Source: an uncultured Candidatus Pelagibacter sp. (GTDB taxonomy: Bacteria > Pseudomonadota > Alphaproteobacteria > Pelagibacterales > Pelagibacteraceae). Taken from it: a stretch of DNA of 14,823 bases. The notes beneath the pieces were generated by a model. It ran no database searches, was not told where the DNA came from, and was given only the letters and a program-made list of their open reading frames with translations. A program made the position numbers and the translations under genes. Shown piece by piece: positions 10,686 through 14,823 of the stretch (the first letter of the stretch is position 1; every line of letters begins with the position of its first letter). The DNA is taken from contig CAJQSW010000013.1 of NCBI GenBank assembly GCA_905616455.1, positions 1 through 14,823 on the forward strand. Reading direction: 5' to 3'.

Positions 10686-11249
10686 GTGAAAAAATTTATT
10701 GCCACTCTATTTACCATAATTTTTATTTCAAATTATACAATTGCAGAAAACACAGAATCTTCAGTAAATAACCTTTTTCACATAGGTCAAATGAACTCAC
10801 ATGACAAACGCTTTACTCTTTTTTTTAAGACTAGAGATAAAGCTGTTTTAGCAAGAGGTGAGAATTATAATTATATTACAGATTTTCCTCAGGATTTATA
10901 TATTTATAATAATGAAACAAAAATTTCATCTTCATTAATTTCATATGAATGGTTTCCTTCACAGGCAAAATATCTTTTAAAAAGTTATGACTATCCAGTC
11001 TTTCCAGAAGACTTTGCTTACTATCTTTTGAAAGATAATAATACCTTAGTAATGATCAGTGCAGTCAAGAATATTAGTAAAAATTTTAAGTTTGATATTA
11101 CGGATAAGAAATTAAATTCATATCCATCAAACGGTAAATTTGATTTTATAATTTCTTCTATTGCTAAAAATTGTGGACATTCGACTCTTAAGGAAAATTA
11201 TAAATGTACCTATTACAAACCTTTAATCTCCAATAATTTGATTAATTAA
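10686..11249 (+). CDS. Secreted protein of unknown function
   Basis: The 187-residue protein begins with a signal peptide (Met-Lys-Lys, hydrophobic core, cut near Ala20 before Glu). The mature part is rich in Tyr, Phe, Ser and Lys with alternating hydrophobic and polar stretches suggesting a beta fold, and has two Cys near the C-terminus (about residues 162 and 170) that could form one disulfide. No membrane helix or known catalytic motif follows the signal. GTG is the only start that preserves the signal peptide. The 3' end overlaps the end of ftsY on the other strand by eight bases. I do not recognise the family. Its base and codon use look like its neighbours, so there is no sign of recent acquisition. 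Confidence 0.75.
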   Translation: MKKFIATLFTIIFISNYTIAENTESSVNNLFHIGQMNSHDKRFTLFFKTRDKAVLARGENYNYITDFPQDLYIYNNETKISSSLISYEWFPSQAKYLLKSYDYPVFPEDFAYYLLKDNNTLVMISAVKNISKNFKFDITDKKLNSYPSNGKFDFIISSIAKNCGHSTLKENYKCTYYKPLISNNLIN

Positions 11250-12159
11250 TTTGAGTAAATGCTTCAGCAAATTTTTTCGCATTAAAAATTTGTAAGTCAT
11301 CTTCTTTTTCACCAAGACCTAGAGCAATTATTGGAAGTTTATATTTCTTAGCGAGTGCTAGTAAAATACCACCTTTTGCAGTGCCATCTAATTTTGTCAT
11401 TACTAAACCAGTGATTGGAATAATTTTATTAAATTCTTCTACCTGGTTGATAACATTTTGACCTGATGTAGCATCAAGAACTAAAATTACATCATGTGGA
11501 GCATCTGGGTCTATTTTTCTAGTAACGTTTGCAATTTTTTTATATTCTTCCATTAAATTTTTCTTATTTTGCAATCTTCCTGCTGTATCAATCAAAACAT
11601 GATTAAAATCACCTTTAATTGCCTCCTCTATTGCTTTGTAAGCAACAGAAGCAGGATCAGATCCTTGTGAAGATTTAGTAATTTGAACATCAATTTTATT
11701 AGCCCAACTCTCTAACTGTTCTATTGCAGCCGCCCTAAAGGTGTCACAAGCAGAAAACATAACTTTACTCCCATTTAATTTTAAAATTTTTCCGATCTTT
11801 CCGATAGTTGTTGTTTTTCCAACCCCATTAACGCCTGAAACTAGAACTGCATTAAGCTTTTCTTTTTTATTAAAGAAGCTCTCATTTTCTAAAGGCTTCA
11901 TTAAAGTGGTTATATAATCTTTTAAAATTAAGCTAATTTCATTAATGACATCATTTTTAGGGTCAATTTTTTCTTGAGCAATAATTTGTTTAATTTCTGC
12001 AGCAGCAGTCAGACCTACATCTGATTGAATTAAATATTCCTCAATTTGATCTAATGTTTTGTCATCTATCTCTTTTTTGACAATTATATCCTTTAAGCCA
12101 AATGTAAAAGCAGAAGCAGTCTTTTTAAAACCAATTTTAAATTTATCAAAAATTCCCAT
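11242..12159 (-). CDS. ftsY: Signal recognition particle receptor FtsY
   Basis: This 305-residue GTPase docks ribosomes carrying SRP to the SecYEG translocon at the inner membrane. The N domain spans about residues 1-95; the G domain carries G1 GVNGVGKTT (109-117), DTFRAAA (139-145), the DTAGR box (191-195), TKLDGTAKGG (255-264) and the closing GLGE (281-284). It is a minimal FtsY: the long acidic A domain seen in E. coli is absent, and only a short basic, Phe-containing N-terminal helix remains for membrane contact, as is common in alphaproteobacteria. Its ATG overlaps the dapF stop by one base (TAATG), so translation is coupled. Its partner Ffh is encoded divergently beyond dapF. Confidence 0.96.
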   Translation of the reverse strand: MGIFDKFKIGFKKTASAFTFGLKDIIVKKEIDDKTLDQIEEYLIQSDVGLTAAAEIKQIIAQEKIDPKNDVINEISLILKDYITTLMKPLENESFFNKKEKLNAVLVSGVNGVGKTTTIGKIGKILKLNGSKVMFSACDTFRAAAIEQLESWANKIDVQITKSSQGSDPASVAYKAIEEAIKGDFNHVLIDTAGRLQNKKNLMEEYKKIANVTRKIDPDAPHDVILVLDATSGQNVINQVEEFNKIIPITGLVMTKLDGTAKGGILLALAKKYKLPIIALGLGEKEDDLQIFNAKKFAEAFTQIN

Positions 12160-12983
12160 TACAGTTTAATCTCAATATTTTTAATATTAGAAACGGGTCC
12201 TTTCATATGAATGCTATTTTTTTCATCAATAGAAATTGTTAGTTTTCCAAGCATAAACTCTATATCTACAGTTTTATCTACTAATGATCTGATGTTCCCT
12301 GCTACGGCGGTTGCGCATGCTGCAGTACCACAGGCCTTAGTAAGTCCCGCACCTCTTTCCCATACTTTAACTTTTATTAAATTTTTATTTACAACTTTAG
12401 CTAGTGTTAGATTGCATTTTTCAGGAAATAATTCATGATTTTCAATTTCAGGTCCAATCTTTTTTAAATCAAAACTTTCAATATCATTTACAAAAAAAAC
12501 TATATGGGGGTTTCCTACATTTACTGCAATTCCACCAATATGCTTGTTATTGTTTTTGTCTATAATTTCAATCTTAAGGTCTTTAGTATCTAACTTTCCA
12601 CTTAAAGGAATCTCTTCCCAATTTGTTTTTGGAATACCTATTTCAGTCTCTACTAAATTATTTCCTAAAATTTTAGATTTTAATAATCCAGAGGATGTCC
12701 GCACAGTTATTTCTTTTTGGTTACTTTCTTTTGATAAAAAATCAGCAATACATCTTGTCCCATTTCCACAGGCACCTGAAGTACTGCCATCTGAATTATA
12801 AAACTCTAAACCAGCATCTATTTCTCTATTTTTTTTAATTAGAATAAGCTGATCACATCCAATAAAACTTCGATCACATATTTTGATTATTTGATCTTTG
12901 CTTAAATTAAGATCATGAATTCGTTGATCAATAATTACAAAATCATTGCCTAAACCATTCATTTTAAATGCTTTAATATCCAT
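12159..12983 (-). CDS. dapF: Diaminopimelate epimerase
   Basis: This 274-residue cytoplasmic enzyme converts LL- to meso-diaminopimelate, the last shared step before lysine and peptidoglycan crosslinks. The two catalytic cysteines are both present: Cys72 in ACGNGTRC and Cys218 in ACGTAACAT, acting as a thiolate/thiol pair without cofactor. FKMNGLGNDFVIID (6-19), GNPH (157-160) and the Glu-Arg-Gly-Ala-Gly of 209-213 complete the substrate pocket. Length is normal. It is first in a minus-strand unit with ftsY; the stop and the ftsY start share one base. Many alphaproteobacteria place an MtaB/MiaB-like methylthiotransferase between these two genes, and none is present here. The ATG at 12983 is 159 bases from the divergent ffh start. 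Confidence 0.97.
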   Translation of the reverse strand: MDIKAFKMNGLGNDFVIIDQRIHDLNLSKDQIIKICDRSFIGCDQLILIKKNREIDAGLEFYNSDGSTSGACGNGTRCIADFLSKESNQKEITVRTSSGLLKSKILGNNLVETEIGIPKTNWEEIPLSGKLDTKDLKIEIIDKNNNKHIGGIAVNVGNPHIVFFVNDIESFDLKKIGPEIENHELFPEKCNLTLAKVVNKNLIKVKVWERGAGLTKACGTAACATAVAGNIRSLVDKTVDIEFMLGKLTISIDEKNSIHMKGPVSNIKNIEIKL

Positions 12984-13030
12984 ATATAGATATTTAACTT
13001 ATTTATTGACTTTTAGAACCTCTATTATAG
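12984..13030. promoter_or_regulatory. Divergent promoter region between dapF and ffh
   Basis: The same AT core offers -10 boxes in both directions: TATAAT on the minus strand (13029 down to 13024, toward dapF) and TATTAT or TATAGG on the plus strand (13023-13028 or 13026-13031, toward ffh). For ffh, TTATTG (13003-13008) is 17 bases from TATAGG, while the better hexamer TTGACT (13006-13011) is only 14 away. Neither -35 is compelling, so start sites are uncertain by several bases. Confidence 0.4.
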
Positions 13031-13119
13031 GTTGTCTTCGTTTCCACAAAAACGTTAAATTTGTGGTGTCTTTGGAAACAAAGAGATCAACACTAGTCAG
13101 CGATATTCGCCCACTAGTG
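13031..13119 (+). promoter_or_regulatory. Structured RNA leader of ffh (putative cis-regulatory element)
   Basis: The leader forms consecutive hairpins on paper. P1 is CCACAAA/TTTGTGG (13044-13050 with 13060-13066). P2 is TCTTTG/CAAAGA (13069-13074 with 13079-13084) closed by a GAAA tetraloop. P3 is CACTAGT/ACTAGTG (13091-13097 with 13113-13119), continued past a two-by-two internal loop by GCGA/TCGC with a TAT loop. GTTGTC (13031-13036) can pair with 13085-13091 (one bulge), enclosing P1 and P2 as a three-way junction, if transcription starts early enough. The region is less AT-rich than its surroundings. No Shine-Dalgarno lies between P3 and the ffh ATG. Comparative work on 'Candidatus Pelagibacter ubique' reported a likely cis-regulatory RNA before ffh; this fits that position. 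It is not 4.5S RNA: the conserved SRP-RNA core is absent. Confidence 0.72.
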
Positions 13120-13142
13120 AAAAACTGCTGTGCGTAATAAAT

Positions 13143-14501
13143 ATGTTTGAAAACTTAACAAATAAATTCGAAGAAATTTTTTCTTCTTTAAAAAAAGCAG
13201 CTTCACTTGATGAGAATCAAGTAGATGAAGGATTAAGAAGTATTAGACAGGCCTTATTAGAGGCTGATGTGTCTCTAGATGTAACTAAAGATTTTATAGA
13301 AAAAGTTAAGCCAAAGGTAATGGGTCAAGAGATAATTAGATCAACCTCTCCAGGAGATATGGTTGTTAAAATTGTTTATGATGAATTAGTTAGTCTTTTA
13401 GGTGAAAGCAACACTGACATTAATTTAAATGCAGTTCCACCTGTCCCAATGATGTTGGTAGGCCTTCAAGGTTCTGGTAAAACTACAACAACAGCAAAAT
13501 TAGCCAAATATTTAGAAAAAAATAAAAAGAAAAAGATAATGATGGTGAGTCTTGACGTATATAGGCCAGCCGCTCAAGAACAGTTAAGATCATTGGGAGA
13601 GCAAAATGATATTTTAACACTACCTATTATTGAAGGACAACTACCAGCAGACATTTGTAGAAGAGCAGTTAGTGCTGCAAACCTAAATGGTGCAGAAATT
13701 ATATTATTTGATACAGCGGGAAGAACACAAATAGACCTTCAGATGATGAGTGAAATCAAACAGATAGAAAGTATAATTAACCCAACGGAAGTATTTTTAG
13801 TTGCAGATTCTTTAACAGGACAGGTTGCTGCAGAAGTTGCAAAAGAATTTAAAAATACTGTAAATGTAACAGGAATTGTTTTAACACGAGCCGATGGTGA
13901 TGCAAGAGGTGGTGCGGCCCTTAGCATGAAGTATGTCTCACAAGTTCCAATTAAATTCTTAGGGGTAGGAGAAAAAATAGAAAATTTAGAGGTTTTTCAC
14001 CCAGATAGGATAGCCAATAGAATATTAGGTATGGGAGACATCGTTTCTCTCGTCGAAAAAGCTGCAGAAGATCTTGGTGAAGAGAACATAAAAAAAGCAG
14101 AAGAGAATTTAAAAAAAGGGCAATTCTCTATGGAAGATTACCTAACCCAATTGAGACAAATGAAAAAAATGGGAGGCATAGAAGGAATCATGTCATTCAT
14201 GCCAGGTGTTTCTAAAATGAAATCACAGATGGATGCTTCAGGAATTGATGAAAGCGTTATTACCAAAAATGAAGCAATCATTTTATCTATGACGAAAAAA
14301 GAAAAAGGAAACCCTAAAATCATTGATGGTTCTAGGAAAAAACGAATTGCTAATGGCTCTGGAACAGATGTGGCCACTATCAATAAATTGCTTAAGCAAT
14401 TTAAAATGATGTCTGAAATGATGAAGAAGATGTCAAAAGGAAACCTGAAGGGTATGTCTGATAAAGGAATACCTCCAGAGCTATTAAATCAACTTAAATA
14501 A
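13143..14501 (+). CDS. ffh: Signal recognition particle protein Ffh (SRP54)
   Basis: This 452-residue GTPase binds 4.5S RNA and the hydrophobic signal sequence of nascent membrane proteins, then docks with FtsY. The N domain (about 1-98) has the [11 protein letters not shown] segment (37-47). The G domain shows GLQGSGKTT (107-115), [11 protein letters not shown] (138-148), DTAGR (190-194), [10 protein letters not shown] (248-257) and GVGEK (274-278). The M domain (about 325-440) is Met-rich, with [13 protein letters not shown] at 343-355 for signal binding and [10 protein letters not shown] (398-407), the RNA-contact motif. Length is typical. The ATG at 13143 has no Shine-Dalgarno and follows a structured leader, so translational control is plausible. 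rpsP follows 14 bases later on the same strand. Confidence 0.97.
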
Positions 14502-14515
14502 ATAAAGGAAAAAAA

Positions 14516-14823
14516 ATGATAAAAATAAGACTATCAAGAGGTGGAACAAAAAAAAGACCAGTGTACAAAGTAGTTATAGCTGACAGTCGTCGTGCAAGAG
14601 ATGGCAGATTTATTGAAAAAGTAGGATTCTTTAATCCTCTTTTACCAAAAGATAAAAAAGAAAGAGTAGGACTAGAAGCAGAAAGAATTAAATATTGGTT
14701 AGGTCAAGGTGCTCAACCAACAGCTAGAGTTGCAAGAATTTTAGGTGAAAATAATATTATCCCTATGCCTGCAAACGCTAACAATCCTAATAAAGCTATA
14801 CCTAAAAAAGAAAGAAAAAAAGA
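14516..14823 (+). CDS. rpsP: 30S ribosomal protein S16 (3' end cut by window)
   Basis: An AAGGAA ribosome site (14505-14510) precedes ATG at 14516. The frame stays open for 102 codons to the window edge. The protein begins [18 protein letters not shown] and continues through [21 protein letters not shown], the unmistakable S16 core that helps assemble the 30S subunit; [17 protein letters not shown] follows at about residues 60-76. The tail is Asn/Pro- then Lys-rich and may continue beyond the window. It lies 14 bases after ffh. In many bacteria rpsP leads an rpsP-rimM-trmD-rplS operon, so those genes are expected just to the right, though this is inference. Confidence 0.96.

Follow-up and report, generated by a model that had tools for sequence, protein, structure and literature searches.

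The window, meaning the whole 14,823-nucleotide stretch of an uncultured Candidatus Pelagibacter sp. analyzed here (contig CAJQSW010000013.1), carries near its 3′ end the divergent genes dapF and ffh, and the gap between them holds three consecutive hairpins (P0, P1, and P2), all on the ffh strand. The features of the locus are as follows.

12159 to 12983, minus strand: dapF (open reading frame), divergent neighbor of the ffh leader
12999 to 13029, plus strand: promoter-like block ending in TATTAT (13023 to 13028) and an A, a pattern conserved among relatives
13044 to 13066, plus strand: P0, hairpin CCACAAA/UUUGUGG (13044 to 13050 with 13060 to 13066), from covariation in the SAR11 and wider alignments
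13065 to 13088, plus strand: P1, hairpin with core UCUUUG-GAAA-CAAAGA (13069 to 13084) and a GGU/AUC base, from covariation and an alignment-free test
13091 to 13119, plus strand: P2, hairpin CACUAGU-CA-GCGA-loop-UCGC-CC-ACUAGUG with a conserved C/C mismatch, from an RF01793 match and covariation
13120 to 13142, plus strand: unpaired tail between P2 and the ffh start, with no Shine-Dalgarno sequence and no U-run
13143 to 14501, plus strand: ffh, 452 amino acids (open reading frame)
14516 to 14821, plus strand: rpsP, ribosomal protein S16 (open reading frame, truncated by the window end)

P2 consists of 7 pairs, a 2 × 2 internal loop CA/CC (13098 to 13099 and 13111 to 13112), 4 pairs, and a loop (11 pairs in total). 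The base of P1 pairs 13065 to 13067 with 13086 to 13088, and its GG is common to P0 and P1. An original prediction, made from the letters of the window, had placed three hairpins before ffh, among them a GNRA-capped stem at 13069 to 13084 and an 11-pair stem at 13091 to 13119; the hairpins are real, and both stems lie at those positions. On the other strand (11242 to 12983), ftsY directly follows dapF in the window with no intervening mtaB gene; such a gene is annotated between dapF and ftsY in Rhizobium and was seen by eye in SAR11 locus L106.

For comparison, 80 Pelagibacter-type relatives (89 to 99% identity to the window, best segment) were kept. The 31-nt promoter-like block (T or A allowed at one position) was present in 80 of 81 sequences (80 Pelagibacter-type loci and the window), and TATTAT was present in all 81, 61 to 62 nt upstream of P2. 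A consensus scan gave no sigma-70-type site at 12999 to 13029; TTGACT and TATTAT are just 11 nt apart in the block, an odd spacing for a sigma-70 promoter. The transcript is presumed to start a few bases 3′ of the block, so that P0, P1, and P2 would all be transcribed.

Structure of the leader

Folding of 13031 to 13119 gave a z score of −4.17, and 13085 to 13130 alone gave −4.13 (0/200 dinucleotide shuffles as good in each case); the first two hairpins alone (13031 to 13090) gave −1.82 (10/200 as good). The last hairpin is the one clearly supported by single-sequence folding, and all three are supported by comparison. Single-sequence folding also drew a CGUUU/AAACG hairpin; as first hairpin, relatives support CCACAAA/UUUGUGG instead. 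The minus strand of the gap (12995 to 13142) also folds well (z, −4.12), which is expected because inverted repeats fold on both strands.

An alignment of 73 SAR11 sequences (72 distinct) had 95.6% of cells paired over the 26 proposed pairs, with 12 of the 26 changed on both sides, each value being reached by 0/500 column shuffles; sliding the partners by 1 to 3 columns lowered pairing to 36 to 52%. The tally of additional pair types carries less weight, since 46/500 shuffles reach it. Changes on both sides occurred at 4/7 pairs of P0 (95.2% of cells paired), 6/8 pairs of P1, and 2/11 pairs of P2, where eight pairs are invariant; the P1 pair at columns 33 and 50 is unpaired in 50 of the 72 rows. 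RNAalifold alone found the same three hairpins, pairing GG 13065 to 13066 with the UC of P1 and not with the CC of P0; the P0 and P1 helices compete for this GG.

A wider alignment held 86 full-length matches (out of 89 chosen loci and the window), 85 of them from other alphaproteobacterial loci. In this alignment, which leans toward the three-hairpin model because it was fitted to it, 25/26 pairs were changed on both sides and 93.1% of cells were paired (0/500 shuffles). By hairpin, both-side changes were found at 7/7 pairs of P0 (83.1% of cells paired), 8/8 pairs of P1, and 10/11 pairs of P2 (99.9% of cells paired). Compensatory changes, proposed with the original prediction as its check, are thus present in every stem, in the 72 distinct SAR11 sequences as in the wider 86. 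G-U cells outnumber A-C cells in the wider alignment (124 versus 33; in P2, 34 versus 1), an excess that identifies the ffh strand as the RNA strand.

P1 was also evaluated free of alignment, by asking whether distinct sequences have a hairpin of −4 kcal/mol or better immediately next to P2. It passed in 56/56 SAR11, 6/11 SRP-less (the order described below), and 85/100 other sequences; the corresponding rates for dinucleotide shuffles were 17%, 2%, and 51%. At the same energy, P0 was present in 55/56 SAR11 sequences (shuffles, 19%), only modestly above shuffles in others (63/95; shuffles, 47%), and found in 0/11 distinct sequences of the SRP-less order. The P2 core is strongly conserved (inner stem GCGA/UCGC in most sequences, the C/C mismatch, and flanking bases), and some positions of the tail at 13120 to 13142 are common to different groups. 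Only part of SAR11 has the GNRA cap: the P1 loop is GNRA in 29 of the 30 distinct SAR11 sequences bearing the window-type P1, but half of the distinct SAR11 sequences (30/60) bear a different P1. Other lineages are more variable still, and the GNRA loop is not supported as an SRP-like feature.

Three further helices were considered and rejected. The original prediction allowed for a closing helix and a possible three-way junction, reconstructed here as GUUG 13031 to 13034 with CAAC 13088 to 13091. Among 33 distinct Pelagibacter-type sequences, 17 formed the complete helix, and one of its pairs was broken in 15; 86.4% of cells were paired, but both-side changes were lacking, so covariation gave the helix no support and it was abandoned. 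A helix joining the sequence upstream of P0 to the tail that precedes the AUG was convincing by eye and was dropped after a pairing test on 119 distinct SAR11 sequences, which paired with their own tails (mean −6.73 and median −6.60 kcal/mol) scarcely better than with those of others (mean −6.36 and median −5.90 kcal/mol); set against distant tails, 20/119 ranked in the top 10%, where about 12 would be expected. For UUUCC/GGAAA, an alternative helix in the centroid of single-sequence folding, 78.7% of cells were paired with no both-side changes, no better than shuffles.

Family membership and distribution

Rfam family RF01793 ("ffh") matched 13076 to 13127 at 48.5 bits (cutoff, 35) and is typed by Rfam as an sRNA. 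In the text available from Meyer 2009 (PMC2704228), the ffh motif is described as a single bulged hairpin with conserved cytosines before ffh, is judged unlike the Ffh-binding part of 4.5S RNA, and is said to have been detected in small-RNA metatranscriptomes cited there. P2 of the window has what defines RF01793 in that part of the source, namely, a position upstream of ffh and a bulged hairpin in which two cytosines are conserved. The position before ffh, which the original prediction mentioned as published, is known (PMC2704228, as far as available); in the comparison with the motif that it proposed, P2 agrees, and P0 and P1 are absent from the RF01793 model.

Two covariance models were used, R1, built from SAR11 only, and R2, a wider three-hairpin model. 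R1 gave full-length matches in other lineages (e.g., locus L114 at 64 bits). R2 matched 211/385 alphaproteobacterial genomes at an E value of 0.01, compared with 121/385 for RF01793 (81 over its own cutoff), a gain of 93 genomes with 3 of the 121 missed; 174/385 genomes of the class had no R2 match. Within SAR11 (the order of genome G002), RF01793 was found in 131/147 genomes. At 112 loci (110 of 123 RF01793 places and two SAR11 loci), ffh was downstream in 105, rpsP without ffh in 4, and a contig end in 3. R2 places were sampled from 38 of 44 newly matched genomes among the matches listed, plus one place known from RF01793; R2 contains no ffh information, yet ffh was downstream at all 39 places (RF01793 has no match in the genomes of 38).

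Below an E value of 5, ffh was the sole Rfam family to match the window gap, and no SRP RNA family (RF00169) matched 12980 to 13150 among matches up to an E value of 10. rRNA mimicry was considered and dropped, as the best rRNA match of R2 in the E. coli rrnB operon (filters off) was at chance level (5.3 bits; E value, 2.8). Phage sequences gave no match to the window gap. A mobile copy of the element was likewise discounted. A table in the available part of PMC5596092 lists RF01793 on a Mesorhizobium huakuii plasmid; our plasmid search returned six matching records, and of the three examined, two had the ordinary order dapF/element/ffh on large replicons. At the third, the place of the element was without annotation. 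A second plasmid search returned nothing, and the M. huakuii copy was not located.

Linkage to the rpsP operon

A typical gene order, that of Rhizobium sp. NLR16a, is ftsY-mtaB-dapF facing element-ffh-chorismate mutase-rpsP-rimM-trmD-rplS. The SAR11 operon in three loci (L001, L015, and L079) is ffh-rpsP-trmD-rplS, and trmD came after rpsP in those SAR11 and SRP-less loci that were examined. No rimM match was found between rpsP and trmD in these three SAR11 loci or in one SRP-less locus; two other SRP-less loci had one.

The search for S16 covered 80 of the 121 RF01793-bearing genomes and found it in 78; in every one, rpsP lay downstream of the element, on its contig and strand (within 2.6 kb in 74 and at 3.4 to 5.1 kb in 4). 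rpsP was also within the stretch examined at 36 of the 39 R2 places, and two stretches end too early; in G031, one of the R2 places, it was about 1.1 kb after ffh. Second S16 genes were seen in G082 (contig C103) and G317 (contig C73), and in G082 a second L19 gene was about 1 kb away.

L19 was found in all 80 genomes searched for it (14 SRP-less, 6 SAR11, and 60 others). Its gene, rplS, followed the element on the same strand within 5.5 kb in 66 and at 7 to 11 kb in 4, was on another contig in 8 (uninformative), and in G210 was probably across the contig origin. In G286, the element precedes ffh and rpsP, rplS is 2.03 Mb away, and no element was found in the 19 kb around rplS. G286 also has a second, weak R2 match. 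On these placements, S16 is the ribosomal protein for which gene and element remain together wherever both could be placed.

An order without detectable SRP proteins

All 4 of the loci with rpsP and no ffh belong to one order, here termed SRP-less and represented by 18 genomes (G273, G350, G177, G052, and G388 to G401; loci L115, L120, L132, L143, and L197 to L206). The genomes are small (0.9 to 1.4 Mb) and AT-rich. RF01793 was over its cutoff in 14 of the 18 and had no match in 4; rpsP was the next gene after the element at 14/14 loci, and dapF was on the other side at 13/14. The SRP54 GTPase domain, common to Ffh and FtsY, was over the cutoff in 0/18 genomes (one subthreshold stretch at 20.5 bits), and the Ffh M domain was over the cutoff in 0/18 (one stretch at 16.7 bits) versus 5/5 SAR11 controls. 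No ftsY match was found at the 14 loci; an mtaB-like gene after dapF was seen by eye at five of them. SRP RNA was found in 0/18, a weak test because only 3/5 SAR11 controls matched. With the same tool, L19 was found in 14/14 motif-bearing genomes, so the genomes are searchable. The whole SRP pathway has apparently been lost in this order, which would be notable in itself if confirmed.

At 12 of the 14 loci, P2 had 132/132 cells paired, with 9 cells changed on both sides at two pairs (a number of pairs that 208/500 shuffles reach). This intact pairing before rpsP, where Ffh is undetected, suggests that the element has been kept under selection without Ffh. The rpsP start was 34 to 41 nt after P2 (13 loci measured), with an anti-Shine-Dalgarno energy of −5.6 to −5.9 kcal/mol.

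Translation start and termination signals

As originally predicted, the ffh AUG of the window (13143) is 23 bases after the last stem and has no Shine-Dalgarno sequence; its duplex with the anti-Shine-Dalgarno sequence was −1.4 kcal/mol, versus −5.7 kcal/mol for rpsP. Among SAR11 ffh starts, 37/175 reached −4 kcal/mol or better. The distance from P2 to the start codon was 23 to 28 nt in the 8 SAR11 loci measured and 17 to 292 nt elsewhere (median, 51; n = 98), a spread that no single initiation-blocking geometry fits. The window gap holds no terminator-like site (a stem and a U-run). A T-run (at least 5 T within 8 nt after P2) followed P2 in 4/84 SAR11, 3/10 SRP-less, and 54/99 other alphaproteobacterial sequences, which fits premature termination in the last group. 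The available text of PMC2573895 places sm5 of Sinorhizobium meliloti in the dapF/ffh gap on the ffh strand, as a small RNA candidate predicted with a terminator and enriched among RNAs of <200 nt; the dapF/ffh gap of S. meliloti Ak57 matched R2 at 49.5 bits.

Interpretation

Judged by comparison of relatives, the ffh leader is a genuine, conserved RNA element that belongs to a known Rfam family, is larger in structure than the motif published, and probably has a role other than the one assumed. Structure, coding-strand bias, position, and persistence without detectable Ffh all emerge from this comparison. We infer that the element acts in cis, very probably as the leader of the ffh-rpsP-trmD-rplS operon. 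Its retention before rpsP where ffh has apparently been lost makes control of ribosome genes likelier than a response to Ffh. The available text of PMC7247131 states that the ligand of a ribosomal leader is often not the product of the next gene. One mark of ribosomal-protein leaders is found here: the RNA is structured and conserved, and the operon downstream of it includes the gene of the candidate ligand.

Our preferred reading, held tentatively and at a little under an even chance, is a feedback leader that binds S16. The protein that binds the leader when in excess of free rRNA would be S16 or, with lower probability, a different ribosomal protein encoded in the operon. The predicted binding site is P2, where the conserved C/C mismatch lies, along with the adjoining P1, and binding would lower expression of the operon. 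ffh would be a passenger, tying output of the SRP protein to ribosome output. Gating of translation by the leader is possible: in SAR11, where P2 is 23 to 28 nt before the AUG (8 loci measured) and ffh mostly lacks a Shine-Dalgarno sequence, a protein bound to P2 would border on the initiating ribosome and could hinder it. The U-run after P2 in about half of the other sequences would also permit premature termination. The argument for S16 is purely one of linkage, and several points stand against it: rplS is also linked in most genomes, likeness to rRNA (E. coli), which ribosomal-protein leaders show often though not always, is not above chance, no match was found in 4/18 SRP-less genomes and 174/385 genomes of the class, and P0 was not seen in the SRP-less order.

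A leader of the same kind with L19 or the tRNA methyltransferase TrmD as ligand is unlikely. In its favor, rplS lies within 5.5 kb in 66/80 genomes and at 7 to 11 kb in 4 more, rpsP is followed by trmD in those SAR11 and SRP-less loci that were examined, and Firmicutes and Flavobacteria have known L19 leaders (PMC7247131, as far as available). The placement in G286, where the element stays before ffh and rpsP with rplS 2.03 Mb off and no element within 19 kb of it, appears to weaken L19, if from a single genome. Rfam includes an L19 leader family; ffh is the one Rfam family that matches the window gap below an E value of 5. RimM would be weakened as ligand, since three SAR11 loci have no rimM match in the interval from rpsP to trmD. 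To an attenuator or released small RNA, with P2 ending a short transcript and the RNA itself or the termination ratio mattering in place of protein feedback, we give a similarly low probability. The T-run in 54/99 other alphaproteobacterial sequences, sm5 with its predicted terminator and enrichment at <200 nt (PMC2573895, available part), the Rfam type sRNA, and the small-RNA metatranscriptome detection cited by Meyer 2009 (PMC2704228, available part) would agree with it; the T-run is found in just 4/84 SAR11 and 3/10 SRP-less sequences, however, the window gap has no terminator-like site, and constant linkage to one operon favors cis action.

Binding of Ffh to its own leader, as originally proposed, was the obvious guess; RNA-binding proteins often control their own mRNA, and ffh is the next gene at 105/112 and 39/39 loci. 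Ffh is very probably not the ligand, and its autoregulation is highly improbable: the element precedes rpsP in 14/18 genomes of an order without detectable Ffh or FtsY and so does not depend on the presence of Ffh, the gap matches no SRP RNA family up to an E value of 10, the GNRA loop is unconserved, and the motif is unlike 4.5S RNA according to the available text of Meyer 2009. A passive role, in which the hairpins merely stabilize the 5′ end of the mRNA, is hardly more credible; the sequence of P0 and P1 varies while pairing is mostly kept, as would suit it, but the strongly conserved core of P2 suggests a specific partner.

Taken as a whole, the reading in which the "ffh sRNA" is an S16-sensing three-hairpin leader that ties the SRP protein to ribosome synthesis across much of Alphaproteobacteria, with an SRP-less lineage having kept the switch for rpsP alone, is plausible but somewhat doubtful. 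An element annotated so far under the vague label "ffh sRNA" would gain a full structure, a named candidate ligand, and a regulatory role open to testing, and the SRP-less order serves as the natural experiment by which Ffh autoregulation is replaced. This reading also suggests how a bacterium may keep protein targeting in step with ribosomes. If true, it would supply feedback control for the rpsP-trmD operon, on whose regulation, according to the available text of a 2024 review (PMC10931766), no information exists.

Comparison with known systems

No function for the ffh motif (RF01793) is given in the available parts of the literature found (PMC2704228, PMC5596092, and PMC2573895 among it), and the available text of a 2020 survey of leaders (PMC7247131) has no occurrence of ffh. 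The three-hairpin structure, the rpsP link, and the SRP-less case were not found in the literature searched, which was partly available and mostly outside subscription journals' coverage. The S16 leader of Flavobacteria (PMC7247131, available part) is alike in lying before rpsP, usually with rimM, and in its proposed binding of S16; it is reported there for Flavobacteria only, and the likeness drawn here is one of position, not structure. sm5 of S. meliloti (PMC2573895, available part) shares the dapF-ffh position, the ffh strand, and enrichment as an RNA of <200 nt; it is described as an sRNA candidate with a predicted terminator, and no three-hairpin model was seen in that text. Bacterial SRP RNA (RF00169) resembles the leader in the GNRA-type loop of part of SAR11 and differs in that it has no match in the gap and that the loop is unconserved in the ffh leader. 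The published RF01793 motif is the same hairpin (P2) in the same place before ffh with the same conserved cytosines; it is a single hairpin, whereas here P0 and P1 are added and the element is linked to the rpsP operon rather than to Ffh.
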